Positions 286 to 49,819 of a DNA stretch of 64,000 nucleotides are shown one piece after another; positions within the stretch are counted from its first letter, which is position 1, and each line of letters opens with the position of its first letter. Source of the stretch: Candidatus Paraburkholderia kirkii (GTDB taxonomy: Bacteria > Pseudomonadota > Gammaproteobacteria > Burkholderiales > Burkholderiaceae); the NCBI GenBank assembly GCA_001189345.1, contig LFKV01000005.1, positions 1-64,000 of the forward strand. The letters are read 5' to 3'. Below the pieces are notes generated by a model. The model saw nothing but the letters and a program-made list of their open reading frames with translations. It did not search any database and was not told the origin of the DNA. A program made the translations under genes and the position numbers.

Positions 286-1179
286 CTGCGCTCACCATTG
301 CTGCCGGGGACGACCGTTGAAGACGATCTGTGAAGTCCTGGGGGTGTCGCGCTCGAATCTCGCAGTCAAGTCGAAGCGGCCGGCTGACTGGGTCGACCGG
401 CGCAAGATGCCCGTGCTCGACGACACGGCGCTTGTCGCCGAACTTCATGAGTTGTTAGGCGACGCGCCGACGTATGGATACCGAGGTGCTTGGGCGTTGC
501 TGAGGCGAAGCCGGGACATGCTGGCTCAACCGCGAGTAAATGCAAAGCGCGTGTATCGCGTGATGCGTCGCCACGGCCTGCTGCTTGAACATCGCCCTCG
601 GCACGCCTCGTCTACGCGTCGGCATGACGGCAAGGTCGCGGTGGATAGCAGCAACATGCGCTGGTGCTCGGATGGCTTCGAATTCCGCTGCGATGCGGTG
701 TCCCATTGCGTGTCGTCTTCGCACTCGACTGTTGCGACCGCGAAGCCATGAGTTGGGCCGCGAGCACAGGCGGTTACACTGGCGATATGGTGCGTGACGT
801 CATGCTTCAAGCCGTCGAGAACCGCTTCACCGGCGCGTTGAAGGCCGACAGGGAAGTCGAGTGGTTAAGCGGCGATGGTTCCTGCTACATTGCCGATGAC
901 ACATTGAAGTTCTCTCGAAAAATCGGACTGAAGCCAGTAACGACACCCGTCAGAAGTCCGCAAAGCAACGGGATGGCCGAGAGCTTCGTTAAAACGATAA
1001 AGCGTGATTACGAAACGATAAAGCGTGATTACGTTTCGTGGATGCCGAAACCCGACGCCAGGACGGCGCTGCAAAATCTGGCCATCGCGTTCGACCACGA
1101 TAACGAGTCACACCCGCACAGCGCCCTTAAATACCGCTCGCCGCGCGAGTTTCGTCGGCAAGCAAATCCTCCAACCTAA
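251..1179 (+). pseudogene. IS2-group transposase OrfB (DDE integrase), frameshifted
   Basis: OrfB supplies the DDE catalytic domain (rve fold). The DDE context is visible: RWCSDGFEF, then WLSGDGSCY, then [11 protein letters not shown]. The frame changes near 692, within the sequence after FEFRCD. At 992-1033 a 21-base unit is exactly duplicated in tandem, adding seven residues (ETIKRDY) between the catalytic Glu helix and the WMPKPD segment; this insertion keeps the frame. The protein would be split and therefore inactive. It resembles E. coli IS2 InsD along its length, including the [13 protein letters not shown] end. Confidence 0.85.
992..1033 (+). repeat. Exact 21-bp tandem duplication in IS2-group orfB
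   Basis: Two identical adjacent copies of a 21-base unit starting AAACGATAAAGCG occupy 992-1012 and 1013-1033. Related IS2-group proteins have only one copy (TIKRDY followed by the W-M-P-K-P segment). It is one of at least ten such microduplications in the window. Confidence 0.95.
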
Positions 1180-1388
1180 GCGGGACCGGCTGTCCGGTTA
1201 TGCGGGGGCAAGTCCACGATCGTGAAAGCGGAGCTCAAACCGCGCAAGACACTCGTAATAACCGTAGTCACGAACGAGGAAGGTGTGCGCTATATGCCCG
1301 ATCTCCTCGGTTTACGCGTGATGACGAAAGAAATGAGCCTCGACGCAGAAGGCGGAACGTCGAATATATGCCGGTCGCGTCGCCTTCG

Positions 1389-2325
1389 TCAGGCCTTAGC
1401 CGTCAGGAAGCTCTGTGCGAGCTGTTTCCACAAGTGATCGGCGGCCGGAGACAAGCGGCGGCCCACACGCGTCATCATCTGGCTCGCGAATCCCGCTGCG
1501 ATCGGATGATCGATCGGCACCGCGACCAGTTCGCCCAGATCAATGCCGCGCCGTGCCAATGCCGCGCCGTGCCGTGATCGACGACATGAACGCCACGCCC
1601 AGTCCCGCCGCCGCAAGCGTCTGCGCCGTGTTGAACAGGTCGACGCGATATGCCGGAATCACATTCGGCCGGACGTCGTCGAGCAGCGACTGCACGAAAT
1701 ACTGCACGCCGAAGGTTTCCGTCATGAAGATGAGCCGCTCGCTCGCCAGCTCTGCCGGCGGCACCTTCGCCATCACCGCGAAACGATGCGTCGGCGCTAC
1801 CATCGCGCACAGCGGCCGCTCGGCGAACGGGTGGATGCGCATCGCCGGATCATCGGCGGAGCGAGCGCACAAGCCGATATCGACTGCATCGTCGCGCACG
1901 AGCGAGAGCACCACGGGCGTCGGGCCGGAGCGGATTTCGACGAGGATGTCGGGATAGGTCATCGAAAAGCGCTGCAGCGCCCGCGCGATCAGGTTGCCGA
2001 TGAATTCCTCGCCGACGCCGAGCGCCACGCGGCCCCGCCGCAAGTGACGGTATTCCTCCAGACGCGCGGCCAGATCGCGCTGACGCCGCTGCCTGTCGTG
2101 ATAGTGGTCGATCAGCAACTGACCGATTTCCGTCACGACCACATGCTGCCCGCGCCGCTCGATCAGCGGAAAGCGCAGCCGCCGCTCCAGCGCCGCGACC
2201 TGCCGGCTGATCACCGAGGGGTTCACGCCGAGCGCTTCCGCCGCCATGCGCACGCCGCCCGTCGCGGCAATTTCGGCGAGGTAGCGGAGCGACCGCTCGC
2301 CGATGTCGTCGATCCAATCGCGCAT
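1389..2325 (-). pseudogene. LysR-family transcriptional regulator, frameshifted by a 16-bp duplication
   Basis: The start chosen (Met at 2325, MRDWIDDIGERS) opens a winged helix-turn-helix with GGVRMAAEALGVNPSVISRQ, followed by a LysR effector-binding domain. The frame is lost at 1542-1573, where a 16-base unit (AATGCCGCGCCGTGCC) is repeated exactly; removing one copy restores a continuous protein ending in QLAQSFLTAKA at 1389. The gene is divergent from the M20 amidohydrolase/MFS operon and would be expected to regulate it. About 90% of the protein before the lesion is intact, but the end of the effector domain is scrambled, so function is doubtful. Confidence 0.85.
1542..1573 (+). repeat. 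Exact 16-bp tandem duplication in lysR-type gene
   Basis: AATGCCGCGCCGTGCC occurs twice without spacer. Deleting one unit restores the reading frame of the LysR-family regulator on the minus strand, so this is the inactivating lesion. Confidence 0.95.
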
Positions 2326-2421
2326 TCGGGACCTGACCGGCTGATTGTTGACCAAAAGGCAACATTTTAAATGCACTCAGGTCATCGGTCGATTTTTTCG
2401 TCGATGCAATACTCCGGCCTT

Positions 2422-2433
2422 TACGTATACGTA
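2422..2433. promoter_or_regulatory. 12-bp palindrome in the LysR/M20 divergent promoter region
   Basis: TACGTATACGTA is a perfect palindrome in the 134-base gap between the divergent LysR gene and the amidohydrolase start, 27 bases upstream of the latter. Position suggests an operator; there is no direct evidence of which protein binds it. AAGGGAG at 2441-2447 is a good ribosome binding site for the ATG at 2460. Confidence 0.4.
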
Positions 2434-2459
2434 TCCATAAAAGGGAGCAGTCCCGCGCC

Positions 2460-3658
2460 ATGAGTGAAACGCACGAATCCCGTTACTGCGAACTCGCCGA
2501 TCTCGCCGACGCCCGTTTGCAGCTCGACGAAATCCGCCATCACATCCACCAGCATCCTGAGTTGTCATACGAGGAAGCGGCGACGTCGCGCTTCGTCGCC
2601 GAAAAGCTCGAAGCCTGGGTTACGACGTGACGCGCAATATCGGCGGTTACGGGCTCGTTGCATCGCTCAAGGCAGGGACGAGCATGCGCACGGTCGGCAT
2701 GCGCGCTGACATGGATGCGTTGCCGATCCAGGAACAGACGGGCCTCGACTACGCGAGCGTCCACGACAGCAAGATGCACGCGTGCGGCCACGACAGCCAC
2801 ACGACCGTCTTGCTCGGCGCGGCGCAGCAGCTCGCGAAGACGCGCAACTTCGACGGCACGGTGCACCTGATCTTCCAGCCCGCCGAGGAAGCGGGCGCGG
2901 ACAGCGGCGCGGAGCGCATGATCGCCGATGATCTCTTTCAGCGCTTTCCGTGCGAGGCGATTTTCGGGCTGCACAACCATCCGGGCGTGCCGGTCGGCAC
3001 GTTCGGCTTTCGCGCGGGGCCGCTGATGGCCGCATGCGATACCGTCAAGGTGCGCATCACCGGACGTGGCGGGCATGCGGCGCGCCCGCATCTGGCCGTC
3101 GATCCGGTTCTGGTCGGCAGCAGCATCGTGATGGCGCTGCAGTCCGTGGTGTCGCGCAACATCGATCCGAACGAAGCGGCCGTCGTCACCGTCGGCTCGT
3201 TCCGCTCGGGCCACGCGGCGAATGTGATTCCGGAAGACGCCGTGTTCGAAATGAGCGTGCGCTCGTTTTCGCCGACGGTGCGGGAGACGCTGGAAACGCG
3301 CATTCGCGCGCTGATCGCGTCGCAGGCGCAGGCGTGTGGCGCGAGCGTCGAGATCGACTTCATTCGCGGCTATCCGGTGCTCGTCAACAGCGCCGCCGAA
3401 ACCGAGTTCGCGCGCCAGATCGCGGAAGAGCTCGTCGGTCCGGAGCATGTGATTGCGCCGTTTCCGCCGATCGCGGGCAGCGAGGACTTCGTGTACTACC
3501 TGCAGAAGGTGCCCGGCTGCTTCGTGCGTCTCGGCAATGGCGAAGGCCGTCCGATGCTGCACAACGCCCGCTACGACTTCAACGACGACAACCTTACCAT
3601 CGGCGCGGCCTTCTGGACGCGTCTCGTCGAACGCTTCCTGACGAAGGAGCGTGCATGA
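2460..3658 (+). pseudogene. M20-family amidohydrolase (hippurate hydrolase/aminoacylase type), one frameshift
   Basis: M20 metallopeptidases of this type hydrolyse N-acyl amino acids in the cytoplasm using two metal ions. The start at 2460 (MSETHESRYCELADL) follows an AAGGGAG site. One base is missing near 2620, within the codons for AW-GYDV, and the rest continues in the next frame to 3658. Family motifs present are GMRADMDALP, HACGHDSHTT (metal ligands), FQPAEEAG, GRGGHAARPH and MLHNARYDF. A downstream transporter starts at 3655, overlapping the stop (ATGA), so the two were translationally coupled. With only one lesion it is either a recent pseudogene or one sequencing error. Confidence 0.85.
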
Positions 3659-4968: not shown

Positions 4969-4993
4969 ACCGTCCGTCGTCTCCATCCTTTCA

Positions 4994-5031: not shown

Positions 5032-5192
5032 CTAGATGCGCAGTCCGCGAGGTGCGGTTCGCCACGCCGGCTCACGAGCATCTCACCGAGTTTTTTATCT
5101 GAGCGGTCTGCGGCTTGCCCGAAATTCCTCGCGCAGGTCCTATCCGCACGCGCCCCCGGCAGGGCTGGATCGAACGAGAACCTGGAGAAAAT

Positions 5193-6550
5193 ATGGCACA
5201 TCACGGTCTGCTGCGCGGCCTGCGCATCACGGCGATCGCAGGCGTCGCAGCGACATCCGTCGGCATTGCGGGCAGCGCTCTGGCCGAACCGATCGCGGGC
5301 AAGACGCTCGTCTACTGCTCGGAAAGCAGCCCGGCCGGATTCGATTCCGCACAGTACACGACCGCACAGTACACGACGAGCGTCGACTCGACTACAGTGC
5401 ATCCGCGCTTCCCGTCTACGACCGCCTCGTCGAGTTCGTGCGCGGCGGCACGAAGGTCGAGCCGGGTCTCGCCGAAAGATGGGACGTATCGCCCGACGGC
5501 AAAGTCTACACGTCCCATCTGCGCCATGGCGTGAAGTTCCACACAACGAGCTACTTCAAGCCAACCCGCGACTTCGATGCGGACGATGTCGTGTTCACGT
5601 TTGAGCGGATGCTCGATCCGCACCAGCCGTTTCGCAACGCGTATCCGGTGCCGTTCCCGCGCTTCGTCGACATGGGGCTCGACAAGCTGATCATGAAGGT
5701 CGAGAAGCTCGATCCCTATACGGTGCGCTTCACGTTGGCCGAGCCAAATGCGCCGTTTATCCAGAACATGGCGATGGCGTACGCGTCGATCCTGTCGGCC
5801 GAGCAGCCGGGCTTCAACCTGGGCTACCTCGTGTACAACGTCGAGCACAGCCGCTCGGCAACGTCGACGTGCGTCGCGCGCTCGACATGGCGATCGACAA
5901 GAAGGCCATCGTCAACATCGTCTACCAGGGCGCCGGGCAGGCCGAGGACGCGCCCATGGCACCCGCGCAATGGTCGTACGACGGGAACCTGAAAGGCGCG
6001 GCGTACGACCCGGCGAAAGCCAAAGGCCTTGCTCGCGAATGCGGGCTTCCCGAACGGCTTCGACATCACGCTGTGGGCGATGCCGGTTCAGCGGCCGTAC
6101 AACCCGAACGCCCGGCTGATGGCCGAGATGATCCAGGCCGATTGGGCGAAGATCGGTGTGAAGGCGAAGATCGTCACGTACGAGTGGGGCGAGTATCTGA
6201 AGCGCGCGTACGCGGGCGAGCACGACACGATGCTGATCGGCTGGACCGGCAACAACGGCGACCCGGACAACTGGCTCGGCACGCTGCTCGGCTGCGACGC
6301 GGCGAAGGGCGACAACGACTCGCGATGGTGCTACAAGCCGTTTGACGACCTGATCCGCAAGGGCCGCACGACGATCGGCCAGGACGCGCGCACGAAAATC
6401 TACATGCAGGCGCAGCAAGTCTTCGCGCAGCAGTTGCCGTTCTCGCCGATCGCGAACTCGACCGTCTATCAGCCGGCGCGCAAGAACGTTGTCGACATGC
6501 GGATCGAGCCGCTCGGCTACGTGCGCTTCGATGGTGTCAGTGTGAAGTAA
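5193..6550 (+). pseudogene. dppA: Dipeptide ABC transporter substrate-binding protein (DppA-like), frameshifted
   Basis: Family SBP_bac_5 proteins bind di- and oligopeptides in the periplasm for an ABC importer. The start at 5193 gives a signal peptide ending GSALAEPIAG and then LVYCSESSPAGFD. An in-frame 15-base tandem duplication follows at 5347-5376, repeating AQYTT. Frame changes occur near 5390, 5860 and 6045; collinear segments include DVSPDGKVYTSHLRHGVKFH, GWTGNNGDPDNW and FSPIANSTVYQPA up to 6550. No permease or ATPase genes follow; the next gene is a LacI regulator on the other strand. The gene is not functional as it stands. Confidence 0.85.
5347..5376 (+). repeat. Exact 15-bp tandem duplication in dppA-like gene
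   Basis: CCGCACAGTACACGA is present twice in direct succession. It keeps the reading frame but adds five residues absent from DppA relatives. Confidence 0.93.
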
Positions 6551-6621: not shown

Positions 6622-7838
6622 TCAAGCCTTCCCGGCGCAAACACGGCAGCACATGGCATATCGAGGAAAGATTCGCGATGCGGCTGCCAGCAATGGCCGA
6701 TCTCTCTGAGACGTATCCGTCTCAACTGCCATCAATTTTCCGGTGCCGAGCCAGTGGAATCGCGTTCGACAATCGAGACATCGAGCATCGGCGGACCATT
6801 CAGCGGCTTTTCCGGCGATTCGATCTATCAGGTATTGAGCCGCCAGCTCGCCCATCTGGCGGTCCGGTACACGTATGGTTGTCAGGGCAGGCTGAAAGTG
6901 CGCCGCGAGCTCGATGTCGTCGGAGCCCGAGATCGACACTGCATCGGGTACTTCCAGGCCCATCTCCTTTGCCTCGAGAAGTGCGGCTATCGCCAATGCA
7001 TCATTCCCGCAGATGATGGCGGTCGGCGCCGGATCAGCATGCATCATTCGCTGAAACGCAGCCGTGCAAAAGGAATGCGGGCGGTCGCGTTGTCGGCCAT
7101 GACGGCCAGATGCTGCGGCCTGACGGCAAGCCCGTTCCGGGCAGGCGTGTCGGTGATTGCCTTCAGCCGCGCCTCGACGCGACTGTTGTCCTTCTGCGAC
7201 TGGAAAACCACTCCGAACCGACTATGGCCGAGCTGAAGCAGACGTTCCGTCATCGTTCCGTCATCAATTCGTACGCGCGAGTGTGCTCGAAGTCGACGCA
7301 AGGCCGTTCACTGTCCGCGCGCCGGCCGAAGGTGATGACGTATGGTATGCTTTTCGACTCGAACAGCTCGAACAGCGCGTCAGGATAATCGTCGCCGACG
7401 AGCGCGAGCGCGTCGACGCCTCGAGCGATCATGCCTCGCGCCTGCCGGTAGCCCTCCATGGGATCGTACGACGAGTAGGCGACAAACACAGCCAGTCCCT
7501 CCACGCCGAGGCGAGCCTGGAAAGCCTGGAGCTGCTGGTGAAATTTCTCGTGCTGGAGTGTGGGCACGATCGATTCGACCGCATACGAGCGGCGAGAGAC
7601 GAGCGAACGGGCCGCTGCATTCGGTTACCCAGTCCAATTGGGTAATGGCAGCCTGAACCTTGGCTCGTGTCTGCTCCGTGACTTTCGTTGGTTCGTTCAG
7701 GAACCGCGACACGGTGGCGGTAGACACGCCGGCCAGCAACGGCTGCGCCGTCAACGCGGCGTTGGCGGAGGCCAGCATCTCAGATTCGGTTTGGCGGGAG
7801 GCAGCAGCGTCGCCTGCCGAGTCGTTGGAGACTCTCAT
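6622..7838 (-). pseudogene. LacI-family transcriptional regulator, multiple frameshifts
   Basis: The N-terminal region contains GVSTATVSRFLNEPTKVTEQ, the LacI helix-turn-helix and hinge. Collinear pieces in different frames then give the periplasmic-binding-like effector domain (PTLQHEKFHQQLQAFQARLG, GYRQARGMIARGVDALALVG, PTAIICGNDALAIAALLEAK, ALTTIRVPDRQMGELAA). Lesions include a one-base insertion near 7632, further indels, and an exact 11-base tandem duplication at 7243-7264. The gene is divergent from the ACS-type MFS gene, and the gap between them holds LacI-type operator palindromes, so it was the local repressor. The last ~60 codons near 6622 are scrambled. Confidence 0.82.
7243..7264 (+). 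repeat. Exact 11-bp tandem duplication in lacI-type gene
   Basis: CGTTCCGTCAT is present twice in succession at 7243-7253 and 7254-7264. Eleven bases shift the minus-strand reading frame between the ...ELMTER and MTERLLQLGHSRFG segments. Confidence 0.93.
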
Positions 7839-8111: not shown

Positions 8112-9466
8112 ATGCGCTCGCATGAATACACGGAGACATCAAACCGCCCCACACTTCCGCCGGCTCCCCCGCGGATTCGGCGCCAGCAATGGGTCGCAAT
8201 GACCTTGCTCATGCTAAGCGGCGTGATCAATTATCTGGACCGCGGCACTTTGGACCGCGGCACGCTCGCGGTGGCCAACGAGCTCGTCCACGGCGACCTC
8301 GGGCTCACCATGGGGCAGATGGGAATCCTGCTGTCGGCGTTCTCGTGGACCTACGCGGTGTGCCAACTCCCCATCGGCGTGCTGGTGGATCGGATCGGGT
8401 CTCGCTGGCTGCTGGGCATTGGTCTGGTCATCTGGTTGATCTCGCAGGCCGCGGGCGGCTTTGCCGCGACGTTCGGCTTTTTTGTAGCCGCCCGGCTCGG
8501 GATCGGCGAGGCGCCTCAGTTTCCGTCTGCGGCCCGAGTCGTCGGGAATTGGTTTCCGCCCACGTCGCACGGTACGCCCACCGGCATTTTCAACTCGGCA
8601 TCGCCGCTCGGAATCGCGCTGGCTCCGCTTGTCCTTTCGCCATTGATTGCGGTTTCTCGACTGGCGCTGGGCTTTCATGACGGGTACTGCCGGCCTGGTC
8701 GTGGCGCTCATCTGGGTCGCTGTGTATCGGGACCCTGTGAAGTCGCGGATGTCCGAGGAGAGAGGAGCGTGCCTACCTTGAATCCGGTGTCGAAGTCGCG
8801 GAAAAGCCGCCCGCCAATGTCAGCTTCGCGGAGTGGCGCGCCCCGTTTTCCTACCCCGCCACGTGGGGCATGCTGATCGGATTTTTTAGCTCCGTGTACC
8901 TCAACTGGGTCTATCTCACCTGGTTGCCGGGCTATCCCAGAACAGCACGGCACATGAGCCTCGCGAACATGGGTTTCGCCGCGGCGGTCCCGTTCTTTTG
9001 CGGCTTCCTGGGTGCTCTGGTCGCCGGCTGGGTCTCGGACCGCATCGCAAGCAAGAGCGCGTCACCGGTAGGCGGACGCCGGAACGCGATGGTATTTGCG
9101 ATGCTCGGCATGGTCATCTTCACGGTGCCCGCCGCGAAAGTATACGATCGCCCTGGCGTGCATCTCGGTCGTGATCTTTCTTGCCAATGCTTCGTCCGCG
9201 TGCGCGTGGTCGCTCGCAACCGTCACGGCGCCGCCCAGCCGGATCGCCTCGCTCGGCGCGATTCAGATTTCGGCGGGTTCCTCGGCGGCGCGTTGGCGCC
9301 GCTGCTGACCGGATATATCGCACAGGCATGGTCATTCGTCCCGGCGCTTTTGACCGGCGCGGGCATCGCTCTTGTCGGAGCGCTGGCGTACCTGTCCCTG
9401 ATCCGCAAACCGATTCCGGAACGAGACTCCGCGGCGAACACCGTTCCGTTCCAGGTCTCGACCTGA
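8112..9466 (+). pseudogene. MFS transporter, anion:cation symporter (ACS) type, multiple frameshifts
   Basis: ACS-family MFS proteins import sugar acids and aromatic or organic anions. The start at 8112 leads into MTLLMLSGVINYLDRGTLAV, then LPIGVLVDRIGSRWLLG and GEAPQFPSAARVVGNWFPP, all characteristic. A 15-base near-exact tandem duplication at 8236-8263 repeats LDRGT in frame. Frame changes near 8660, 8750, 8830, 9140 and 9270 break the C-terminal half, which still shows FFSSVYLNWVYLTWLPGY and GALAPLLTGYIAQAW. It heads the cluster with a DapA-like aldolase, dehydroquinate synthase and PfkB kinase and would have brought in their substrate. Confidence 0.85.
8236..8263 (+). repeat. 15-bp tandem duplication in ACS-type MFS gene
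   Basis: TGGACCGCGGCAC occurs at 8236 and again 15 bases later, giving LDRGTLDRGT where relatives have one copy. The duplication is in frame. Confidence 0.9.
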
Positions 9467-9518: not shown

Positions 9519-10514
9519 GTGAACATCAATATGCCGACAACTGCCATCGAGGGCATCGTCCCGGTCATGTTTACCCCTTTTCTCGATTACCCCTTTTCTC
9601 GACAGCGGTGAAGTCGACTACGCGGAGCTGGAGCGTCTGATCGAGTGGTACGTGGCGCACCGATCGGATGCGCTGTTCGCCGTCGCCCAGTCGAGCGAGA
9701 TGCAGTTCCTGACCCTCCCTGAACGGGTAGCGATCGCGCGATTCGTCGTCGAGAAGGTGGGTGGTCGCCTTCCCGTCGTCGCGTCCGGCCATATCAGCGA
9801 CTCCATCGACGGTCAGATCGAGGAACTCCGCGCGATCGCATCCTCCGGGGTGCAGGGCATCGTGCTCGTCACCAACAGGCTCGACCCGAAACACGAAGGT
9901 ACGGCGGTGTTCCTTGCCAACCTTCGTCAACTGCTCTCCTCGCTGCCGCCGGAAGTGCCGCTCGGCCTGTACGAGTGTCCGGCGCCATATCGTCGATTGC
10001 TTACCGATCACGAGCTCCAAGTGTGCATCGATTCGGGGCGGTTCGTGATGTTGAAGGACGTGAGCTGCGACCTGAGCACCGTTGCCCGGAGAGTGGCCAT
10101 GGCAGAAGGGTCGCCGCTCAAGATCCTGAATGCCAATGCGGCCATCGCGTGGGGCGCGATGAAAGCAGGCGCGGCAGGATTCAACGGGGTATTCAACAAC
10201 TTCCATCCCGATCTCTATCAATGGCTGCGCAGCGACAGCGCAAGCCATCCGGCGCTCGCAGCGGAGCTGTCGACCTTTCTCGTGCTTGCGGCCGTGTCGG
10301 AAGCACTCGGCTATCCCGCGCTTGCGAAGATGTACCGCCAGCGTATCGGCACATTCTCGTCGATCCGTTGCCGCGCAATCGACTATGCTATGACGTCCGC
10401 CAGCGCTTCTGGGCCCTGGATGCCGTGCTGGACAAGATCGTCGCCGGCACCGAAGACTTTCGTTCAAGGATCTCCGCTTTGTCGCTAGAGCCGCGTCATC
10501 GCGAAGCAGGCTAA
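9519..10514 (+). pseudogene. DapA/N-acetylneuraminate lyase-family aldolase, frameshifted by a 16-bp duplication
   Basis: This family of TIM-barrel Schiff-base enzymes cleaves or condenses pyruvate-type substrates. The start (GTG 9519 or ATG 9531) gives IEGIVPVMFTPFLD, then a 16-base tandem duplication at 9572-9602 shifts the frame. The rest continues from 9603 as SGEVDYAELERLIEWYV. YECPAPYRR supplies the conserved Tyr, and FVMLKDVSCDL the Schiff-base Lys. A second frameshift near 10390 changes the end; the original stop was probably at 10514. The gene lies 24 bases before the dehydroquinate synthase, in the same operon. The true substrate cannot be told from sequence alone. Confidence 0.82.
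9572..9602 (+). repeat. 16-bp tandem duplication in aldolase gene
   Basis: TACCCCTTTTCTCGAT is followed at once by the same sequence (last base changed). Removing one unit joins MFTPFLD to SGEVDYAEL in frame. Confidence 0.93.
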
Positions 10515-18207: not shown

Positions 18208-18212
18208 ATGAA

Positions 18213-20090: not shown

Positions 20091-20765
20091 CTACGGACGG
20101 AGTGCGGGCGCGGGAACCGTCGAGACGTTCTGGGCGAGCGCCGCGGCCTCCTGTGCGCGCATCGCGCGGAGGAAGCCTTCGCGTTCGCGCAGGGCGCGCC
20201 AGTACTGCGCGATCGGCGGGGCGAAGCGTTCGCTCAGGCCCAGCAGTTCCGCGAGCATCACATCAGCGCATAGCCGACGGAAATGTCCGCCGCCGTGAAG
20301 CGCCCCGCGCACAGATAAGGTCCGCGCCTCGAGCGACGGCGCGAGCGTGCGCAGGCGCGCGTGAAACCATCGCGCATAGTCCTCGACGATTTGCGGCTGC
20401 CTGCGCTCCGGCGGCTCCAGATGCGCATAGCGCAAAACGAGCGTCTGCGGAAACGTGAGCGTCGCCTCGCCGAAATGCAGGAAGTTGAGATAGCGCCCGA
20501 AATCGGCCTCGTGCGGCGCGACGTCGAGCATACCCGGCGAGTAGCGCGCCACCAGATACTGGCAGATCGCCGCCGATTCGGTCATGAAGAGCGCGCCGTC
20601 CTCAAGCGCCGGAATCGTGCTGAGCGGATTCACTTCCATGAACGCGCGCGCAAGCACGCGCAGCGGAAACGGTAGCATCTTCAGTTCATACGGCACGCCG
20701 ACCTCTTCCAGCGCCTATAGCGGCCGGAACGAGCGCGCGCTCACGCAATGATGCAGCGTAATCAC
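20091..20765 (-). pseudogene. Glutathione S-transferase, nonsense mutation and frameshifts
   Basis: GSTs conjugate glutathione to electrophiles. A GTG at 20765 opens MITLHHCVSARSFRPL, then an in-frame TAG (20717-20719 on the plus strand) replaces the Trp codon of the usual RPLWALEE sequence; translation would resume as ALEEVGVPYELKML. The thioredoxin-fold part ends with NPLSTIPALEDGALFMTESA, carrying the glutathione-contacting ES. Two compensating indels between 20240 and 20320 scramble the start of the C-terminal helical domain. It sits 18 bases downstream of liuC. Confidence 0.8.
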
Positions 20766-20782
20766 GTCGATTCCTCCGCCGC

Positions 20783-21580
20783 TCAGCCGAGCCAGGCCGG
20801 TTTGCGCTTCTCCAGGAAACTGCGCACGCCTTCGCGCCCTTCGTCGGATGCGCGGATGCGGGCGATGCGCTCGGCGGTCTCGCCGATCAACGCTTCGTCG
20901 ATGTCCTTGCCCGCGAAATCCGCGACCAGCTTCTTGCACTCGCGCACGCCGTTCGGGCTGTTCGCGGCGATGTTCGCGGCGATCGCATCGACGCGAACAT
21001 CGAGCTCACCGGCCGCGACGGCTTCATGCACGAAACCGAGGCGCAGCGCTTCGGCGGCGTCGAAGCGCTCGGCCGTGACGAAATAACGATGCGCCGCGCG
21101 CGCACCCATCGCGCGAATCACGTAGGGCGCGATCGTTGCGGGCATCAGGCTGAGCTTCGCTTCGGAGAGACAGAAGTGCGCTGTGTCCGCGGCGACCGCG
21201 ATGTCGCATACGGCGACGAGGCCCATGCCGCCCGCGTAGGCATCGCCCTGCACGCGCACGATCACCGGCTTCGAGCACGCGTAGATCGTGTTGAGCATGG
21301 TGGCCAAGCCGAGCGCATCGGCGCGGTTCTCCGCTTCCGAATAGCCGGCCATGCGCTTCATCCAGTTGAGATCCGCGCCCGCGCAAAAGGCCGGGCCGTT
21401 CGCGCCGAGGACGATGACGCGCACGCCGGCGTCGTCGTTGAGCGCGCGGAAGGCGGCGGTCAGTTCGACGATGGTCGCGTCGTCGAAGGCGTTACGCACG
21501 TCGGGGCGATCGAGCGTCACGCGCGCGACATGGCCTTCGACGCCGATTTTCAGGCGTTGCAGATTCGATGCGTCGGTCAT
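20783..21580 (-). CDS. liuC: Methylglutaconyl-CoA hydratase-like enoyl-CoA hydratase (LiuC)
   Basis: The 265-residue crotonase-fold protein starts at 21580 after an excellent GGGAGGTGAC site. It has the oxyanion-hole segments GPAFCAGADLNWMKRMAGYS and GDAYAGGMGLVAVCDIAVAA. ADLNWMKRMAGYS is characteristic of LiuC, which hydrates 3-methylglutaconyl-CoA to HMG-CoA in leucine catabolism. The gene is undamaged, but the other liu genes are not in the window; upstream lies modA on the other strand. A general enoyl-CoA hydratase role remains possible. Confidence 0.82.
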   Translation of the reverse strand: MTDASNLQRLKIGVEGHVARVTLDRPDVRNAFDDATIVELTAAFRALNDDAGVRVIVLGANGPAFCAGADLNWMKRMAGYSEAENRADALGLATMLNTIYACSKPVIVRVQGDAYAGGMGLVAVCDIAVAADTAHFCLSEAKLSLMPATIAPYVIRAMGARAAHRYFVTAERFDAAEALRLGFVHEAVAAGELDVRVDAIAANIAANSPNGVRECKKLVADFAGKDIDEALIGETAERIARIRASDEGREGVRSFLEKRKPAWLG

Positions 21581-21601
21581 AGTGTCACCTCCCTTGAATT
21601 T

Positions 21602-21627
21602 GAGCATCGCTCAATTTATCGATGCTC
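21602..21627. repeat. Inverted repeat upstream of liuC
   Basis: GAGCATCG (21602-21609) and CGATGCTC (21620-21627) are exact reverse complements separated by ten AT-rich bases, 22 bases upstream of the liuC start. The position fits an operator. Confidence 0.5.
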
Positions 21628-21770
21628 GCAGCCTGCATTTACTGGTCAGTATCCACGAAAAACGCTACCACCGTCAACTCGACGGCATGAGTAACACTCA
21701 CAAACTGCGAACACCTCAATCATACGACAAGACCGGTGACCACCATGTCACGAAGCGCACATGCGCGGAC

Positions 21771-21792
21771 GTAATACAGTCGTATATATTAC
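21771..21792. promoter_or_regulatory. ModE-like palindromic site upstream of modA
   Basis: GTAATA and TATTAC arms flank a CGTATA core, about 100 bases upstream of modA. The AT-rich TATAT dyad resembles ModE boxes that repress mod operons when molybdate is plentiful. The match is by eye. Confidence 0.4.
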
Positions 21793-21878
21793 AGTGCTCG
21801 CCGGACCGCACGGCCGCACGCTCGCGGCCCGTCCAACGCGCCGCTAGAAGTCGATCCATAACCAGAATTTCAACTTGA

Positions 21879-24003
<2,125 letters not shown>

Positions 24004-24183
24004 TGTCCCATTCGCGTAAACGCGGGCGCCGCGGCGTTGTAAAAATGTCCGGTGCGGGCGATCAACTACTTCAGAGTTTACTTGAGGTTTACCGGTTCGC
24101 CGTTTATTCTTCGGCTTGCAGCTTGTTTTCCACAAACCGAAGAATTTTTTGCTTACCCAGGCCCGTCAGTGACTGCGAACTCC

Positions 24184-24772
24184 ATGTTAAGCGCCCGGCT
24201 TTCTGAAGTCGATCAATCCGTTTCGATCGAAACGCTCTTGGGGGTGGCCGCCCAAGCCACTGACATTCTCAACCAGATTCGCGATGCGATGGTGGAGCCG
24301 TATCCGCGCAAGAGTGCGCCGACAGCTCTCAGGCGGCGTCGCTGTGCGGCATCGACAAGCAGCGATTCCAGTATCTGACGACCAAGGGCGAACTGCCCGC
24401 AGGAACGTCCAAGGGCGCCGGCCGTAGCAAAGAATTCACGCTCGAGGAAACGCTGACCTGGATCCGTGCGACGAAGGAACGCGCTCGCCGGCCCGAGGGC
24501 AAGCGCGGGCGGATCGTGACCGTCGCTAATTTCAAGGGCGGCGTCGCCAAGACCACGACCGCCGTGTTGGCCGCGCAAGCGTTGACATTGCTCGGCCGCA
24601 AGGTGTTCGTCATCGATTGCGATCCGCAGGGCACGATCACGCAATTATGCGGCTGGGCGCCGGACGCGGAAATCTCGGACAATCGGACCCTTCTTCCGCT
24701 CATCTACGGCGATCAGAATACGCTCCAGTACGCGGTGCAAGAGACGTATTGGCACAATCTGGAGTACGCACC
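24184..24772 (+). pseudogene. parA: ParA-family partition ATPase, N-terminal fragment
   Basis: ATG at 24184 opens MLSARLSEVDQSVSIETLLG; after a frameshift near 24330 it continues as FQYLTTKGELPAGTSKGAGR, the winged-helix start of plasmid ParA proteins. VANFKGGVAKTTTAV is the deviant Walker A box and VIDCDPQGTITQL the Walker A' region. Homology ends near 24772 (QETYWHNL), losing the Walker B half of the ATPase. Such large ParA proteins segregate low-copy plasmids or second replicons. The companion parB is absent. The gene follows the integrase remnant, as in plasmid backbones. Confidence 0.82.
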
Positions 24773-26301: not shown

Positions 26302-26480
26302 AATTGCGTCTTGGAGGCGATTGAAAAATGCAAACTGCGCGTTAATGCGGTCTGTGTGCTTTGCTCGATGCGATTTTCAGCAAGCCGTCCGTGGTCGAAG
26401 CTGTCATCGATATCATCGCGAGCCGTTACGCTCGCTCCCGGGGATCTGTCGTCGCCGAGCAAACCTGTCGAGGAGAAAGT

Positions 26481-28484
26481 ATGGCAAGTTTTGATCGGGA
26501 AGATTCGGAGCTGGACATCGTCGTGCCGGCGCGCAGGTCAGCAGGTCGGCGGGCGAGCAAAGGAAAGGGCCAGACCGGCACGATGCAGCCCGATGTCGCG
26601 ATGACGGCGGAGCAGAACGAAGAGCGTCAGCGCCGGATGCGCGCGCTCATCCAGTTGGGCAAGGAACGCGGGTACCTCACGCACGCCGAGATCAGCGACC
26701 ACCTGCCGGACAACTTCGCGGAAATTGCGGCGATGGAAACCATCGTCAGCACGTTCAACGACATGGGTGTCGCGGTCTACGAGCAGGCGCAGGATGCCGA
26801 AACGCTGTTACTGAGCGATAACGCCCCGAGCGTCGTTGCCGATGAGCAGTCGGAAGAAGAAGCGGAAAACGCGCTGTCGGCCGTCGATTCCGAGTTTGGC
26901 CGCACGACCGATCCCGTGCGCATGTACATGCGCGAAATGGGGGCGACCGAGCTGCTCACGCGCGCGGGCGAAATTGCCATTGCGAAGCGTATCGAAGACG
27001 GGCTGCACGAGATGATCCAGGCGATCGCGGCATGCCCCTCGACGGTTGCGACCATTCTCGCGGGCGCGGCGCAAGTCGAATCGGGCGAGCTGAAGATCGA
27101 CGATCTGGCCGACGGGCTCAAGGAAGACGATTCGGAAGAAGGGGATATTTCGGCTTCCGATGCAAGCGACTCGACCGATATCGATACGGACACCGATGAA
27201 TCCGACGATGATTCGGATGACGAAGACGATATCGACGGCGGCGATTCGGGCGCATCGAACGAAGCGCGCCTGAAGCAGTTGAAGGCGGGCTGTTTCGAAA
27301 TCTTCGCGCGCGTGCGCGTGCTGGCCGAGCAGGCAAGCAATCCGAAGGGATCCGGCGCCGTGGCGGCGAAGGCCGTCGAAAAGGCGCGTGCCGAAATCCA
27401 GCGCGAACTCGGTTCGATTCGCTTCACGGCGAAGACCATCGACCGCCTGTGTGCGGACGTGCAGCAGCAGGTTGCGCAGGTACGTGAAATCGAGCGCCGC
27501 GTGCTGCAGATCGCGGTCGACCGTTGCGGCATGCCGCGCGAGAAATTCGTCGAGTCCTTCCCGGGCCACGAGACCGATCTCGAATGGACGACGCGCGCGG
27601 CGGCGGCTTCGAAGCAATACGGCGCATCGCTCGAGCGCAGCCTGCCGGCGATTCAGGCAGAGCAACAAAAGCTCATCGACATCGAAGGCGTGGTCCAGAT
27701 GCCGCTCAAGCAACTCAAGCAGATCAACCGTCAAATGACGGCTGCGGAGCTGAAGATGCGTCAGGCCAAGCGCGAGATGATCGAAGCGAACCTGCGTCTC
27801 GTGATTTCGATCGCCAAGAAGTACGTCAACCGCGGCATGCAGTTCCTGGATCTGATCCAGGAAGGCAACATCGGTCTGATGAAGGCGGTGGACAAGTTCG
27901 AATATCGCCGCGGCTGGAAATTCTCGACGTACGCGACGTGGTGGGTGCGTCAGGCCGTGACGCGCTCGCTCGCCGATCAGGCCCGCACGATCCGCGTGCC
28001 GGTTCACATGATCGAAACGATCAACAAGCTGAACCGCATTTCGCGCGAGATCTTGCAGCAGACCGGTCAGGAAGCGCATCCGTCGGTACTCGCCGAGCGT
28101 ATGGAAATGCCCGAAGAGAAGATCCGCGGCATTCTCAAGATCGCGAAGCAGCCGGTGTCGCTGGAAACGCCGGTCGGCGAAGACGCCGACGCCACGCTCG
28201 GCGACATGATCGAGGACCAGGGCGCCACGTCGCCGGCGGACGCCGCGGTGCACGCGAACATGCGCGCCGCGATCGACGATGCGTTGAATGCACTGTCGCC
28301 GCGCGAAGCGAAGGTGCTGCGCATGCGCTTCGGCATCGACACGGCTTCGGACTACACGCTCGAGGAGCTGGGCAAGCAGTTCGACGTGACGCGCGAGCGC
28401 ATTCGTCAGATCGAAAGCAAGGCCATGCGCAAGCTCATGCACCCGAGCCGCGCGGACAAGCTCCGTCCGTTCCTGGATCGCTGA
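26481..28484 (+). CDS. rpoD: Primary-type RNA polymerase sigma factor RpoD
   Basis: The 667-residue protein starts at ATG 26481 after GAGGAGA. It has region 1.1 ([20 protein letters not shown]), region 1.2 ([20 protein letters not shown]), an Asp/Ser-rich acidic insert at about residues 214-256, the non-conserved region, region 2 ([35 protein letters not shown]), region 3 and region 4 ([20 protein letters not shown]). It directs RNA polymerase to housekeeping promoters. The usual dnaG and rpsU neighbours are missing: the upstream DNA is plasmid-like and an IS2-group element starts 22 bases after the stop. It could be the main sigma factor moved by rearrangement, or a second RpoD paralogue. 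Confidence 0.9.
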
Positions 28485-29697: not shown

Positions 29698-29699
29698 TA

Positions 29700-30021
29700 G
29701 GAAAGAAGACGATGGAGGTAGAAATCCTCCGTGAAGCAGTGGAGTATGGTCGAACAAAAAAATTGACTGCGCGCTCACCATTGCTGCCGGGGGACGACCG
29801 TTGAAGACGGTCTGTGAAGTCCTGGGGGTGTCGCGCTCGAATCTCGCAGTCAAGTCGAAGCGGCCGGCTGACTGGGTCGACCGGCGCAAGATGCCCGTGC
29901 TCGACGACACGGCGCTTGTCGCCGAACTTCATGAGTTGTTAGGCGACGCGCTGACGTATGGATACCGAGGTGCTTGGGCGTTGCTGAGGCGAAGCCGGGA
30001 CATGCTGGCTCAACCGCGAGT
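29700..30021 (+). pseudogene. Internal fragment of IS2-group orfA/orfB
   Basis: These 322 bases align with 220-537 of the window. Compared with that copy there are two substitutions and three indels (A7 versus A6, an extra GC, an extra G), which account for the whole length difference of four. The orfA end is in frame here ([18 protein letters not shown]), so this copy is closer to the ancestral sequence. It stops at 30021 and is joined to DUF2946 coding sequence. Confidence 0.9.
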
Positions 30022-35760: not shown

Positions 35761-35774
35761 GTTTCCGGCATCCG

Positions 35775-35806
35775 AAAAGCGCACGCGCGGAAAAGCGCAC
35801 GCGCGG
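35775..35806 (+). repeat. Exact 16-bp tandem duplication after pspA
   Basis: AAAAGCGCACGCGCGG is repeated without spacer in the gap between pspA and the TPR gene. It lies outside coding sequence, showing that the microduplications are not confined to pseudogenes. Confidence 0.93.
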
Positions 35807-45155: not shown

Positions 45156-45522
45156 GTCTCTGATTAGCTGAAGATCTTGCGGAACTTGTCATGCTGGACC
45201 ATATTATGGCGGTCTCCGTCTCCGCCAGCGCAGCAAGAAAAGCCCCGCAAGGTAACTTGCGGGGCTTTTTGTTTGTGCCCGCGACTTCGGCTCTATTCGT
45301 TCGTCATCCTGCACGTCATCCGCAATTTGTGACGAATCGCCTTGCGCTTTCAGACGTTTCTATCTTTTTTGATTCGCCATCGACAACTAACCTCGCGCAT
45401 CGCTTGTCTTTCGGCAAGTGAACACAACGCAACACAAGCATTCGTGCCTCCTATCGCGAACACTCGGCTGGATGCGTTGCCGCAAACAGGCAAATGCCAA
45501 TCTCAAGGTTATCAACTCAGTC
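45156..45522. other. Gene-free stretch between the integrase remnant and the OMP gene
   Basis: No gene is recognised in these 367 bases. They hold the terminator at 45240-45270 and the presumed promoter of the outer membrane protein gene. Confidence 0.4.
45240..45270. terminator. Intrinsic terminator
   Basis: AAGCCCCGCAAG and CTTGCGGGGCTT form a perfect 12-bp stem with a 4-base loop and a T-run. It would end transcription of a gene lost at the island scar. Confidence 0.88.
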
Positions 45523-46077
45523 ATGGCAGGTTTCAAGAAAGTAGTCGGGCCGCTGTTCGTTTCGCTGCTCTGCGCCGCGCAGGTTCACTCCGAGGCGCTG
45601 AATCCGACAGCGCTCAAGTTGCTGGGCGTCTACGGACCGCACAGCGCGTTCGCCGGCCCTTACGTCGGTGCGAAATTCGGTGTCAACTGGTCGGACATCA
45701 CGGGACCGAATGCCCGGTCGACCCACACGCCCGCCGAATTCCCGGGCCTCGTCGCCGGCTTGAACTACGACATTGTTCCGCTGGTGGTCGGTATCGAAGG
45801 GTTTGCCGACTTTCACTGCGGTTCGACCACTCGCGACGACGGCGGCTTCGACGTCAAATTCGGCGTGCCGGTCAACGGCAACATCATGCCGTACGCGCGC
45901 GTCGGCTTCACGGCCTCCTGGCCAGATACGCGTCTGCACTACGGCGGCGGCGTCGAATACAAGTTCGCCAAGAACTGGAGCGTCGCGGGCGAATACACCG
46001 GCGATGTCTCGAGCTACCAGGGTGGCCATCGCCATAACGACAGCGTGACTATCGGCGTGCATTACTACTTCTTCTGA
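45523..46077 (+). CDS. Putative outer-membrane beta-barrel protein
   Basis: From ATG 45523 the 184-residue protein has a signal peptide (GPLFVSLLCAAQVHSEA), then an eight-strand-like barrel: GPYVGAKFGVNWSDITG, FPGLVAGLNYDIVPLVVGIE, YARVGFTASWPDTRLHYGGG, KNWSVAGEYTGDV. It ends YYFF, a typical C-terminal aromatic for outer membrane insertion. It resembles opacity/OmpW-type small porins without clear assignment. A GTG start at 45418 would add 35 residues but bury the signal peptide, so the internal ATG is preferred. Confidence 0.65.
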   Translation: MAGFKKVVGPLFVSLLCAAQVHSEALNPTALKLLGVYGPHSAFAGPYVGAKFGVNWSDITGPNARSTHTPAEFPGLVAGLNYDIVPLVVGIEGFADFHCGSTTRDDGGFDVKFGVPVNGNIMPYARVGFTASWPDTRLHYGGGVEYKFAKNWSVAGEYTGDVSSYQGGHRHNDSVTIGVHYYFF

Positions 46078-46128
46078 TTCCGCTTCGCCGATGCGCGTGC
46101 GTTCCGGCGCTCGCGCATCGCGCCCGCG

Positions 46129-46883
46129 TCATTTCCCCGACGCGATCCGATCCTGGATATGCTTCGCGCGCCGGCGAGGACGGGTGCGAATCGAGCAGGC
46201 TCGAATGCCCGCCGTCGATCGACGCGAGCTTCTGGACGCCGTCACGAGTTCCGCCGGACTGTATCCCTTTTTCTTCTGCATGTCGAACGAGTAATCGTCG
46301 GCGGCGCGTTCCTGCGATTGCGAGAACTGCGCGTTGACGAACTTCTCGCTCAGATCGCCGAGCTGCGAGCCGGAAATGCTCGCGATCATGCCGAACCCGA
46401 CGAGACCACCGAGCGCGCCGCGGAAGTCGCATAGGCGACCTGCATCGCCTTCTTCGTGTGGCCGAGCGTGACGCCCCATCTCGTGGCCGACGACGCTGCG
46501 CACTTCCTCGTCCGTCATCAGGTCCATCAGGCCGCTGTAGATGCGCACGCAGCCGTTGGCCATCGCCCAGGCGTTGACGTCCTTCGTCATGTAAACCTTG
46601 TAGTTGACCGGCAAGCCGTTGATGTTGTCGCCGAGCTGGCTCGCGATCGTATTCAGGCGCTGCGTGTACGCGCTCGACGCCGGTGCGATCTGATTCTTGC
46701 TGTCCAGAGCTGCCCGCACGATTTGTCGGAGAGCGTGCGCACGTCGCGGTCGCTCAGCATGAGCGCCTGTGTCGCGAGCTGCCCGGATTGAGCGAGCGAA
46801 TCCGGATTGAAGCTGCCGATGCTGCCGCACGAAGCGAGCGCGGTCACGGTCGCAGCCGCGGCGCCCAAGCGAAAAATGCTCAT
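46129..46883 (-). pseudogene. M48-family metalloprotease lipoprotein, frameshifted
   Basis: M48 proteases of the envelope use zinc bound by HExxH. The start at 46883 gives a lipoprotein signal with lipobox LASC. After a shift near 46715 the frame continues SAYTQRLNTIASQLGDNING and AWAMANGCVRIYSGLMDLMT, then VVGHEMGRH in place of the HEMGH core. Further indels flank GALGGLVGFGMIASISGSQL. QERAADDYSFDMQKKKGYSP supplies the third zinc ligand region, and the tail AKHIQDRIASGK ends at 46129. At least four indels make it a pseudogene. Confidence 0.8.
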
Positions 46884-46986
46884 GTTGCCTTCTCTCTATG
46901 GTGTGGTTTTGAAGCCCGCATTGCACGGGTCGGCGAAATGCTCGATGGAGATCGTCGGGGCGACCACACGAAAATTACGATTTTAT

Positions 46987-47558
46987 TTAAAAAACCTGAC
47001 CCTCGACGATGGTCGGCGTGTCCTCGGTGTTCGCGTCGGTATAAAGATTGCCGTGCCGATCCGCCTGCACCGCGCACACCAGCGCGACCTGCGGCGTGAG
47101 ATCGATGAACATGCGCGCATACAGCTCGCTATACGCATAGATCGTATAGATCGCGCCGATCTCCAGCAGGCCGTCCTCGAGCAGCTGCGCGACGCGTAGG
47201 CTCTGCGGGCCCGCGAACGCGAAATCGACCTTGTGCGCGATGCCTTGCTCAAAGAGCGCGAGATGCTCCGGCCGGCTGATGCTCGAGATGAGCAGATGCA
47301 CGTCGTGCACGCGCCCGGGATCGAGCTTCGCAAAGGCGCACGAGAGGAAGTCGGCCTGCTTCTGGTTGTTGCCTTCGAGCGCGACGCGATCGCCCGCGAC
47401 GATCAGCGCGCTCAGCGCGTCGACGATGCGCGCGGGATCGAGCACCGGGCCGTCGAGCCACGGTTCGATCAGCTTTAGTCGCCGCGCCTTTTCCTGCGCG
47501 CGCGTTCCAGTTCCGGTTTGCGGCGAGCGCGTCGGCAGGTGTGGACGGGTTGGTTCAT
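46987..47558 (-). pseudogene. mdcA: Malonate decarboxylase alpha subunit, 5' fragment
   Basis: MdcA transfers the acyl-carrier protein between malonate and acetate in the malonate decarboxylase complex. The start MNQPVHT at 47558 leads, after a shift near 47510, to GDRVALEGNNQKQADFLSCA, VHDVHLLISSISRPEHLALF and PQVALVCAVQADRHGNLYTD. The protein stops after PTIVEGQVF near residue 190 of about 550, so most of it and mdcBCDE are lost. A 9-base tandem duplication at 47137-47153 inserts three residues (IYTIYAYS). The GntR gene upstream overlaps by four bases. Confidence 0.85.
47137..47153 (+). repeat. 9-bp tandem duplication in mdcA fragment
   Basis: ATAGATCGT is followed directly by ATAGATCG, adding three residues to the GAIYTIYAYSELY region; relatives have GAIHTYSELY-like sequence. 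Confidence 0.8.
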
Positions 47559-48350
47559 CGGTCTGCCTGTGAGGAGGCCGTTGGGGTCGCCCGGGAAGAG
47601 GCGGAAGCGCGCGGGCGGCGCTTCTTCCTGACGTGGCTCGCCTGGGCGAGCGCTTGCGCATCGGCGAGAAAGCGGTAGAGCAGTTCGCCGGTCGCGAGCA
47701 GATGGCGCGCGACCAGCGTCTGCGCCTTTTCGATGTCGCGCGCGGCGAGCGCCTCGAAGATCGCGCGGTGCTCGGCATCGGACGAATCCTTGTGGATCGG
47801 TAGCCCGAGCTTCAGACGCAGATAGCGCTCGCCGCGGCGATGCATCTGGCCGATCAGCTCCATCAGGCGCGGCCGGTCCGCGGGCGCGTACAGGCTCATA
47901 TGGAACTGCTCGTTGCGCACGACGTAGAGCGCCGGATCGGGCTCGTTCTCCGCGGCTTCGAGCAGGCGCTGCGCATTCGCGAGCGTCTCCGGCGTGTGGT
48001 GCGCGATCGCGATGCCGATGGCGAGACTCTCCAGCGACGCGCGAATCTCGTGGATCTCGCGCGCCTCGTCGGCGGACTGCAAGCTGACGGCCGTGCCGCG
48101 ATTCGGCTCGATCGTTACCCAGCCTTCGCTTTCGAGCTGGCGGAACGCCTCGCGCACCGGAATCGCGGAGACGGAGAAGCCGCGCGATCGCGTCCTGGCG
48201 CAGCGGCTCGCCTGGCACCAGCGAGCCCTCGACGATCGCGGAACGCAACGCATCCGCGATGAAGCGCGACGTGCTCTGGCGCGGCTCGAACTGCGCGTCG
48301 CAAAATGAGACCGGATGCGGTGATCCGGAAGCAGAGAGATCGGTCGGCAT
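47555..48350 (-). pseudogene. GntR/FadR-type transcriptional regulator, one frameshift
   Basis: From 48350 (MPTDLSASGSPHPVSFCDAQ) the winged helix begins with FIADALRSAIVEGSLVPGEP. Near 48172 the frame shifts within LSVSAIPVREAFRQLE, and the FCD effector domain follows (IHEIRASLESLAIGIAIAHH, RNEQFHMSLYAPADRPRLME, SSDAEHRAIFEALAARDIEK). It lies upstream of mdcA in the same direction and probably regulated malonate use together with the divergent MFS gene. Apart from the single shift the protein is well preserved. Confidence 0.82.
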
Positions 48351-48354
48351 GGCT

Positions 48355-48392
48355 AGGTGAAAGTGCGGGCTTGAGGTGAAAGTGCGGACTTG
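48355..48392. repeat. 19-bp direct repeat in the GntR/MFS intergenic region
   Basis: AGGTGAAAGTGCGGGCTTG is followed by a copy with one mismatch (48374-48392). It may be another microduplication or a pair of regulator sites. An AT-rich block with TTTTATATATAAAA lies just beyond, at 48411-48424, and is a likely promoter. Confidence 0.7.
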
Positions 48393-48509
48393 TCGCGTGT
48401 CAATATTCAAATTTTATATATAAAACTGCACGCGGAATCCCCGGTGCTTTCCTTAGACGCCATGACAAACACCAATCACCGGCGCGTTGTTAATTCCTTT
48501 AGGAGAGAC

Positions 48510-49819
48510 ATGGCCATGCCGACACTGCTGGATCGTCAGATAAGCGCCGCGCAAGCGCCGCGCGCGCCAGGAAGACGCCGCTCAACCGGTCGCAGATTAT
48601 GGGTTTCTGGGGTGCGTGGGCCGGCTGGACGCTCGACGGGATGGATTCGTTCATCTACGCGCTCGTGTTCGCGCTGGCGCTCACCGAACTGCTGCCGCGC
48701 TCCGGCTATGCCGCGACGCCGGCGAACGTCGGTCTCGCGGGCTCGATCCTGTTCGCGCTGTTCCTAGTGGGATGGGGACTGTCGTTCATCTGGGGCCCGC
48801 TCGCCGACCGCTTCGGGCGCACCAAGGTGCTCGCCGCGACCATCTTCACGTTCGCGATCTTCATCGGCTTCGCCGCGACCGCGCATACGGTGTGGGAGCT
48901 CGGCATCTATCGATTTTTCGCGGGCGTGGGCATCGGCGGCGAATGGGCGCGGGCGGGAACGTATGTCGCGGAGGCCTGGCCGGAGGATCGACGCAAGATG
49001 GGTGCCGGCTATCTGCAGACCGGCTATTACGCGGGATTCTTCCTTGCCGCCGTGCTGATGAACTATCGGTGCGGCGTTCGGCTGGCGCGCGATGTTCCTG
49101 GTCGGCCTGTTCCCGGTCGTCGTGTCGATCATGGTCCTGCTGCGCGTGAAGGAAACCGACAAGTGGGAGCGCGCCGAGGCCGTTCATCCGCACGTGAAGC
49201 ACGAGAGTTCGCTGAAAGCGATCTTCAACGCGCAATATCGCAAGCGCACCATCGTCGCGGCCGTGCTGCTGACCGTCGCGATCATCGGCCTGTGGGCCGG
49301 CGCGGTGTACGAGCCGTCGGCGGTCATTCAGCTCGCGACGAAAGCCGGCATGGGCAAGGCGGAAGCCGCGCGCATGGCGTCGATCGCCACGATCGTCGGC
49401 TGTCTCGCGCTGCCGCCGATGGCCGAGAAAATCGGCCGCCGCAAGACGCTCGCGGTGTACTTCGTCGGCATGGCAGCGTCGATCGCGCTCGCATTCGGCT
49501 GGGCGTTCTATCTGCCGAACGGGCTGGTGCCGTTCATCGCGCTGCTCGTCGTGCTCGGCTTTTTCGGCGGCAATTTCGCGCTCTTTTCGCTGTGTGGCTG
49601 CCCGAGCAGTTCGAAACCCGCGTGCGGGCGACGGCGTTCGCGTTCTGAACCTCGGTGGGCCGCTTCTTCGGCGCGATCGTGAACTTCGGCATCGGCGCGA
49701 TGGTGCTCAACATGAAGACGCTCGGCGTGCCGATCGCGCTCACGGCGATTGCGTTCCTGATCGGTCTCGCGGTCATTCCGCTCGCGCCGGAAACGAAGGG
49801 GCAGGAACTGCCGGGCTGA
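48510..49819 (+). pseudogene. MFS transporter, frameshifted
   Basis: ATG 48510 after AGGAGAGAC opens MAMPTLLDRQISAAQAP. An 11-base tandem duplication (48543-48564) then precedes a frame change, after which MGFWGAWAGWTLDGMDSFIY and GPLADRFGRTKVLAATIFTF follow, typical of 12-helix MFS sugar- or organic-acid importers. More shifts near 49075, 49590 and 49648 break the C-terminal half, which still shows MAEKIGRRKTLAVYFVGMAA and ends PETKGQELPG at 49819. It is divergent from GntR and mdcA, so malonate or a related acid is a plausible substrate. Confidence 0.82.
48543..48564 (+). repeat. 11-bp tandem duplication in MFS gene
   Basis: AGCGCCGCGCA is followed by AGCGCCGCGCG. It falls between the intact N-terminus and the first membrane helix, where the frame is lost. 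Confidence 0.85.

Follow-up and report, generated by a model that had tools for sequence, protein, structure and literature searches.

The stretch analysed here, referred to as the window, comprises bases 1-64000 of contig 5 of the Candidatus Paraburkholderia kirkii genome, a 3.91 Mb assembly in 48 contigs (97% complete), and it contains a series of short head-to-tail tandem duplications within and between its genes. An initial annotation of the window had listed ten of these, all of which are present in the sequence at positions correct to within 1-2 bases; the pair at 8236 is near-exact, with 13 of 15 bases identical, and the repeat at 47137 consists of 17 bp of a 9-bp period. The ten listed duplications and three others (48355, 55113 and 59922) are as follows.

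992..1033, forward strand: 21-bp in-frame doubling inside an insertion sequence (IS) transposase (rve domain); 11 of the 13 copies read carry the doubling, and 2 diverged copies have a single unit.
1541..1573, reverse strand: 16-bp frameshifting duplication in a LysR-family regulator gene; the sole aligned relative is without one unit, and the frame switches on the site.
5347..5377, forward strand: 15-bp duplication in a gene for a family-5 solute-binding protein; all 7 relatives shown have 20 bp less here.
7243..7265, reverse strand: 11-bp frameshifting duplication in a LacI-family regulator gene; the sole aligned relative is without one unit, and the frame switches on the site.
8236..8263, forward strand: 15-bp near-exact in-frame duplication in an MFS transporter gene with other frame breaks; the sole aligned relative is without one unit.
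9571..9602, forward strand: 16-bp duplication close to the beginning of a DHDPS-family gene; net gain of 16 bp over the only relative aligned, in which the gap falls as 12+4.
23793..23819, forward strand: 13-bp duplication in a DUF3701/phage-integrase-family gene; polarised by a frame switch on the site, not by DNA alignment.
35774..35806, no strand: 16-bp duplication in an intergenic spacer, with a PspA/IM30 gene on one side and a TPR gene on the other; not polarised.
47137..47153, reverse strand: 9-bp in-frame near-exact duplication in a malonate decarboxylase alpha-subunit gene; the 9 bp are missing in all 7 relatives shown.
48355..48392, no strand: 19-bp duplication with one substitution between the copies, in DNA that is noncoding in relatives; not among the ten listed.
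48542..48563, forward strand: 11-bp frameshifting duplication in an MFS transporter gene whose frame is also broken elsewhere; all 7 relatives shown are 11 bp shorter.
55113..55131, forward strand: 9-bp duplication in coding DNA, exact and derived; not among the ten listed.
59922..59940, forward strand: 9-bp exact in-frame derived duplication inside leuA, where the frame stays open.

These duplications are real mutations and not a repeat family, and the statement that their units have no sequence in common proved correct. By ortholog DNA or reading-frame evidence, eight of the ten listed duplications are new in this lineage. At 5347 the gap is placed as 15+5 in one of the 7 relatives shown and as 6+14 in the other six; a new 15-bp unit is likely at this site, though it is not cleanly isolated within the 20-bp difference. 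The gap at 48542 is split 2+9 in two of the 7 relatives shown. The initial annotation had called at least four sites out of frame (1542, 7243, 9572 and 23793), which is the case at 1541, 7243 and 23793, each of which carries a frame switch, but at 9571 the downstream frame alone could be aligned, the upstream frame giving no alignment of its own. A frame switch also falls on 48542, which had not been counted among the out-of-frame sites. The exact repeats at 7358 (9 bp) and 20959 (12 bp) were considered as further new duplications and set aside as old, one aligned relative at each having equal length. The doubling at 992 is a property of an IS variant and not an independent local event, and its distribution looks as if the duplication had been carried along while the element multiplied. 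This IS family, found at 31-1207 and 29698-30021 of the window and at many sampled loci, is abundant in this genome; a search at E 1e-20 showed the family to be absent from the other loci compared.

The window contains 9 exact or one-short tandem pairs with a period of at least 11 bp, whereas 20 fifth-order Markov simulations predict 0.2, and the exact pairs of this period come to 9 in 64 kb (14 per 100 kb). Density was then determined in 464 kb of this genome (the window and sampled stretches), in 400 kb from 13 normal-size genomes of the same genus, and in 250 kb of G003, a same-genus genome of 2.4 Mb that is 60% complete. The 464 kb held 39 exact pairs with a period of at least 11 bp (8.4 per 100 kb), six of which are the one 21-bp IS unit, compared with 7 pairs (1.75 per 100 kb) in the normal-size genomes. 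G003 held 16 (6.4 per 100 kb), which were counted and not polarised. With a further 400 kb of this genome, the pooled 864 kb, scanned for periods of up to 100 bp, gave 52 distinct units of at least 10 bp, 48 of them of at least 11 bp (5.6 per 100 kb). The duplications are thus widespread and much denser than in relatives, as had been claimed, with the window itself denser in tandem pairs than the genome average. A 20-bp doubled unit was found twice in the sample (stretch L129, 18493-18533, and stretch L248, 7435) and may perhaps mark another mobile element carrying a tandem pair.

For a polarised comparison, the orthologous stretches of G001 and G011, two larger genomes of the same genus, were aligned to portions of the window and the sampled stretches. 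This genome contributed 41 sources (the window and 40 stretches), of which those without aligned relatives add nothing to the polarised counts. A derived duplication was defined as an exact pair for which both other genomes are shorter by exactly one unit; this length-difference calling was used in place of gap-based calling of insertions, which had given 10 near-exact insertions of 8-30 bp here and 2 and 0 in the relatives. In a total of 287 kb aligned three ways, 61 derived exact duplications of 3-60 bp were found in this genome compared with 7 and 4 in the two relatives, and for units of at least 8 bp the counts were 19 versus 0 and 0, while the numbers of lineage substitutions were nearly equal (13,191 here, 12,855 and 13,042 in the relatives). 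The first batch of alignments (216 kb) gave 46 versus 6 and 3, with 14, 0 and 0 units of at least 8 bp, and the second (70 kb, built on 5 of the 16 wanted G011 stretches) gave 15 versus 1 and 1, with 5, 0 and 0 such units. When 12% mismatch was allowed in the first batch, duplications of 8-40 bp numbered 18, 3 and 2. A two-way comparison with G001 over 427 kb gave 27 units of at least 8 bp to 1. The check on orthologous loci that had been proposed for these duplications therefore showed an unequal density and a lineage-specific excess. Derived insertions and deletions of 3-60 bp stood at 100 to 38 in this genome, 37 to 7 in G001 and 12 to 14 in G011; the insertion surplus of G001 may be an effect of polarisation.

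When up to a quarter of the bases were allowed to mismatch between copies, 30 derived duplications of 8-40 bp were counted in this genome, 19 of them exact, along with 11 in G001 and 2 in G011, none of which is exact. Since exact copies of this size occur only here and those in the relatives have all diverged, the excess is recent; short duplications as such have long been an ordinary kind of mutation in the genus. The divergence of the copies in 11 of the 30 derived units also bears on whether the pairs could be assembly artefacts, for example contig ends abutted without merging of their overlap. The analysis worked from the assembled sequence, which is in 48 contigs, but unit lengths are varied, and where a gene frame stays open the units are multiples of three (18 bp in stretch L126, 12 bp in stretch L244 and 9 bp in leuA), making an artefact very unlikely.

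At 3.9 Mb this genome is smaller than 17 of the 18 other same-genus genomes looked at (5.5-10.1 Mb), the remaining one being G003, and its genes are disrupted in comparison with those of the genus, as in a reduced genome undergoing gene decay. Named hits, G+C and genome sizes suggest that the organism is a host-restricted symbiont and that its genus is Caballeronia or close to it. Where both relatives have coding DNA, 135 frameshifting indels were found here versus 32 and 52, which indicates that constraint has been lost in this lineage. In order to separate mutation from lost constraint, single-base indels were used as a yardstick, with the counts of the two relatives pooled. In DNA that is noncoding in the relatives, duplications numbered 10 here versus 3, with 51 versus 85 single-base indels (p=0.008); in coding DNA the figures were 51 versus 8 duplications and 121 versus 66 single-base indels (p=0.001). 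This contrast favours a raised duplication rate without proving one, and we infer that the rate itself rose beyond the effect of relaxed selection. The reading that we prefer is that this reduced genome, rich in pseudogenes, has recently and in its own lineage accumulated short tandem duplications (3 to about 24 bp) that do not depend on homology, through a raised rate together with relaxed selection, and we give it a probability of roughly 0.45.

Several observations weigh against this reading. The polarisation depends on two relatives only, G001 and G011. The second 400 kb of this genome was thinner than the first sample, with 21 pairs of period at least 10 bp, five of them the IS unit, and in the two-way comparison with G001 the class of 3-5 bp showed a smaller contrast (117 to 68). 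Duplications with diverged copies are equally many in this genome and in G001 (11 and 11), which means that this class of mutation is not confined to the present lineage. When deletions of 3-60 bp are the yardstick, the contrast in coding DNA persists (51 versus 8 duplications with 31 versus 15 deletions, p=0.03), but in noncoding DNA it is not significant (10 versus 3 with 7 versus 6, p=0.41). It is a serious possibility, and the main rival, that relaxed selection alone is at work, the duplication rate being ordinary and the products being retained by a genome that became host-restricted not long ago and has many dead genes, where larger genomes purge them. The excess of coding frameshifts and of coding single-base indels, the older duplications of the same kind in the relatives and the noncoding comparison with deletions are all in keeping with it. 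The relative numbers in noncoding DNA speak the other way, as single-base indels there are about equal in this genome and the relatives, yet duplications are not; this argument would not be decisive if larger genomes strongly constrain intergenic insertions. Relaxed selection accounts in any case for an unquantified share of the duplications.

The junctions of the duplications were examined for pre-existing homology, taken as the number of bases by which the period extends past two units, with a chance match of 0.27 per side. In 27 derived units of at least 8 bp, homologies of 0, 1 and 2 bases were found in 14, 9 and 1 units, and of 4, 5 and 8 bases in one unit each; the chance expectation for 27 units is 14.4, 7.8 and 3.1 with 0, 1 and 2 bases. 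The 52 distinct units of at least 10 bp had 0, 1 and 2 bases in 22, 20 and 4 cases, with six longer, compared with 27.7, 15.0 and 6.1 expected. These units were 10-24 bp long, and no exact unit longer than 24 bp was present among them in the 864 kb scanned to 100 bp. Because junction homology is at chance level and exact units stop at 24 bp, copying between pre-existing repeats fails to explain the longer class. Replication slippage between short pre-existing repeats, one of the mechanisms originally suggested, is therefore not supported for units of at least 8 bp. The three of 27 units with 4-8 bases of homology would suit slippage, which may also have produced the 3-5 bp class, but homology is not above chance in the 27 units nor clearly so in the 52, and PolA is present; as a general explanation slippage is quite improbable. 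Scars of departed transposons, with both target-site copies retained, might be expected in a genome in which insertion sequences are abundant, but the units range from 3 to 24 bp with no single length, and this origin is scarcely credible. At the 22 zero-homology junctions in the 864 kb, a C five bases outward and a G five bases inward of the junction looked raised; this motif was only slightly raised in four other sets, and as many positions had been compared without correction it is not claimed.

The initial annotation had also suggested a repair defect. MutS, MutL, RecA and PolA are all present above the cut-off with no internal stop, and loss of mismatch repair, RecA or PolA was rejected as the cause. 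What did stand was damage to end joining, as Ku and LigD have been lost and an IS occupies the place of ku-ligD. Ku was undetected in this genome and in G003, although the search found it in all 11 of the other genomes of the genus that it covered. For LigD, the ligase domain is absent here save for a 31-bit fragment match; it is above the cut-off in all 7 other same-genus genomes searched apart from G003, which has a 67-bit fragment. In G001 the ku and ligD frames lie within a 10 kb segment (stretch L215, 1156-11163) that aligns through in G011, and on contig 7 of this genome (stretch L125, 9841-11150) nothing but an IS copy, belonging to the family seen at 992, lies between the two flanks of that segment. 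The most economical interpretation is that the end-joining genes were lost in an IS-linked deletion, which fits with the absence of Ku from the whole assembly; a misjoin at a repeat is possible at this locus.

The duplications share with products of overhang fill-in and end joining a lack of junction homology beyond chance and a short, overhang-size unit. Dependence on Ku and a dedicated ligase does not agree with the present genome, in which both are absent. As Ku and LigD are missing, canonical end joining cannot be making duplications now, and end filling at staggered breaks, which had been offered as one example of a mechanism, is not supported in its canonical form as a present-day process. 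It is conceivable, if improbable, that the duplications arose before the ku-ligD loss, when staggered breaks could still be filled in and joined by Ku and LigD; of the readings weighed here, this one is nearest to that of the initial annotation. The anatomy of the products would fit, and Ku (11 genomes) and LigD (7 genomes apart from G003) are widespread in the genus, but both genes are gone from this genome, and the two Ku-carrying relatives are without young duplications of at least 8 bp.

For the preferred reading of a raised rate with relaxed selection, two routes may be suggested, which have between them a modest chance of being correct. A short stretch between nicks on opposite strands would be copied on either side and then joined up again end to end; alternatively, a displaced lagging-strand flap would be ligated without removal. 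Joining would fall to a ligase other than LigD in a Ku-independent route, an upper limit close to two helical turns would suit a stretch small enough for melting or displacement, and relaxed selection would preserve the products. Yeast lacking the flap nuclease Rad27/FEN1 accumulates short lagging-strand tandem duplications flanked by several bases of repeat. The duplications described here are likewise short and in tandem, but they show no more junction homology than chance would give, and the genome has PolA, which in bacteria is the enzyme that carries a flap nuclease domain. More speculatively, the loss of Ku and LigD may itself have opened a Ku-independent route from paired nicks or flaps to homology-free duplications of up to about two helical turns, which would be a readable signature of reduced genomes without non-homologous end joining. 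Both reduced genomes of the genus that were examined, this one and G003, are rich in duplications and without detectable Ku, G003 being 60% complete and unpolarised; we consider this extension rather unlikely.

The mutation class itself is already known. Among small insertions in human DNA, short tandem duplications have been called the commonest, and in the mouse cell experiments of the same report they arise from breaks with protruding ends in dependence on Ku80 and Lig4 (Schimmel et al. 2017, PMC5730883); a later report places fill-in at 3' overhangs before joining in human and mouse cells (Schimmel et al. 2021, PMC8355091). The mammalian duplications resemble ours in being short, head-to-tail and of unique sequence, with no pre-existing repeat needed, and an origin in two nearby opposite-strand nicks has been proposed for them, as in the route suggested above. 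The breaks there were made by Cas9 nickases, and the proteins needed there differ from the situation in this genome, from which Ku and LigD are absent; the Ku dependence in mouse cells (PMC5730883) argues against a fill-in route without Ku. In a mutation accumulation study of the symbiont Teredinibacter turnerae deletions exceeded insertions, 73 to 33 (PMC5833318). Indels accumulate and break genes there as here, but the parts of that study drawn upon describe no tandem-duplication class, which is prominent in this genome. No account of a recent lineage-specific burst in a bacterium without Ku and LigD was found among the titles and opening lines listed by searches of the open-licence PubMed Central literature. 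A bacterium making or keeping such duplications without these proteins would suggest that another route exists, and would be a simple organism in which to study it; it would also demonstrate that genes in reduced genomes can die through small insertions, where the Teredinibacter study (PMC5833318) stresses deletions.

The window may combine pieces from different replicon origins. Bases 20388-24763 match contig 3 of another genome, G012, and bases 45214-63947 match the largest contig of G001. Comparison of the region around 35774 with plasmid records gave 4 Paraburkholderia fungorum matches at 72% identity over 69% of the query, the spacer itself not being compared. A 707-aa RpoD-like sigma factor is encoded at 26361-28484; its best named relatives (72-73%) are in Paraburkholderia and Cupriavidus, one of them plasmid-borne, and it may be an extra RpoD rather than the housekeeping one.

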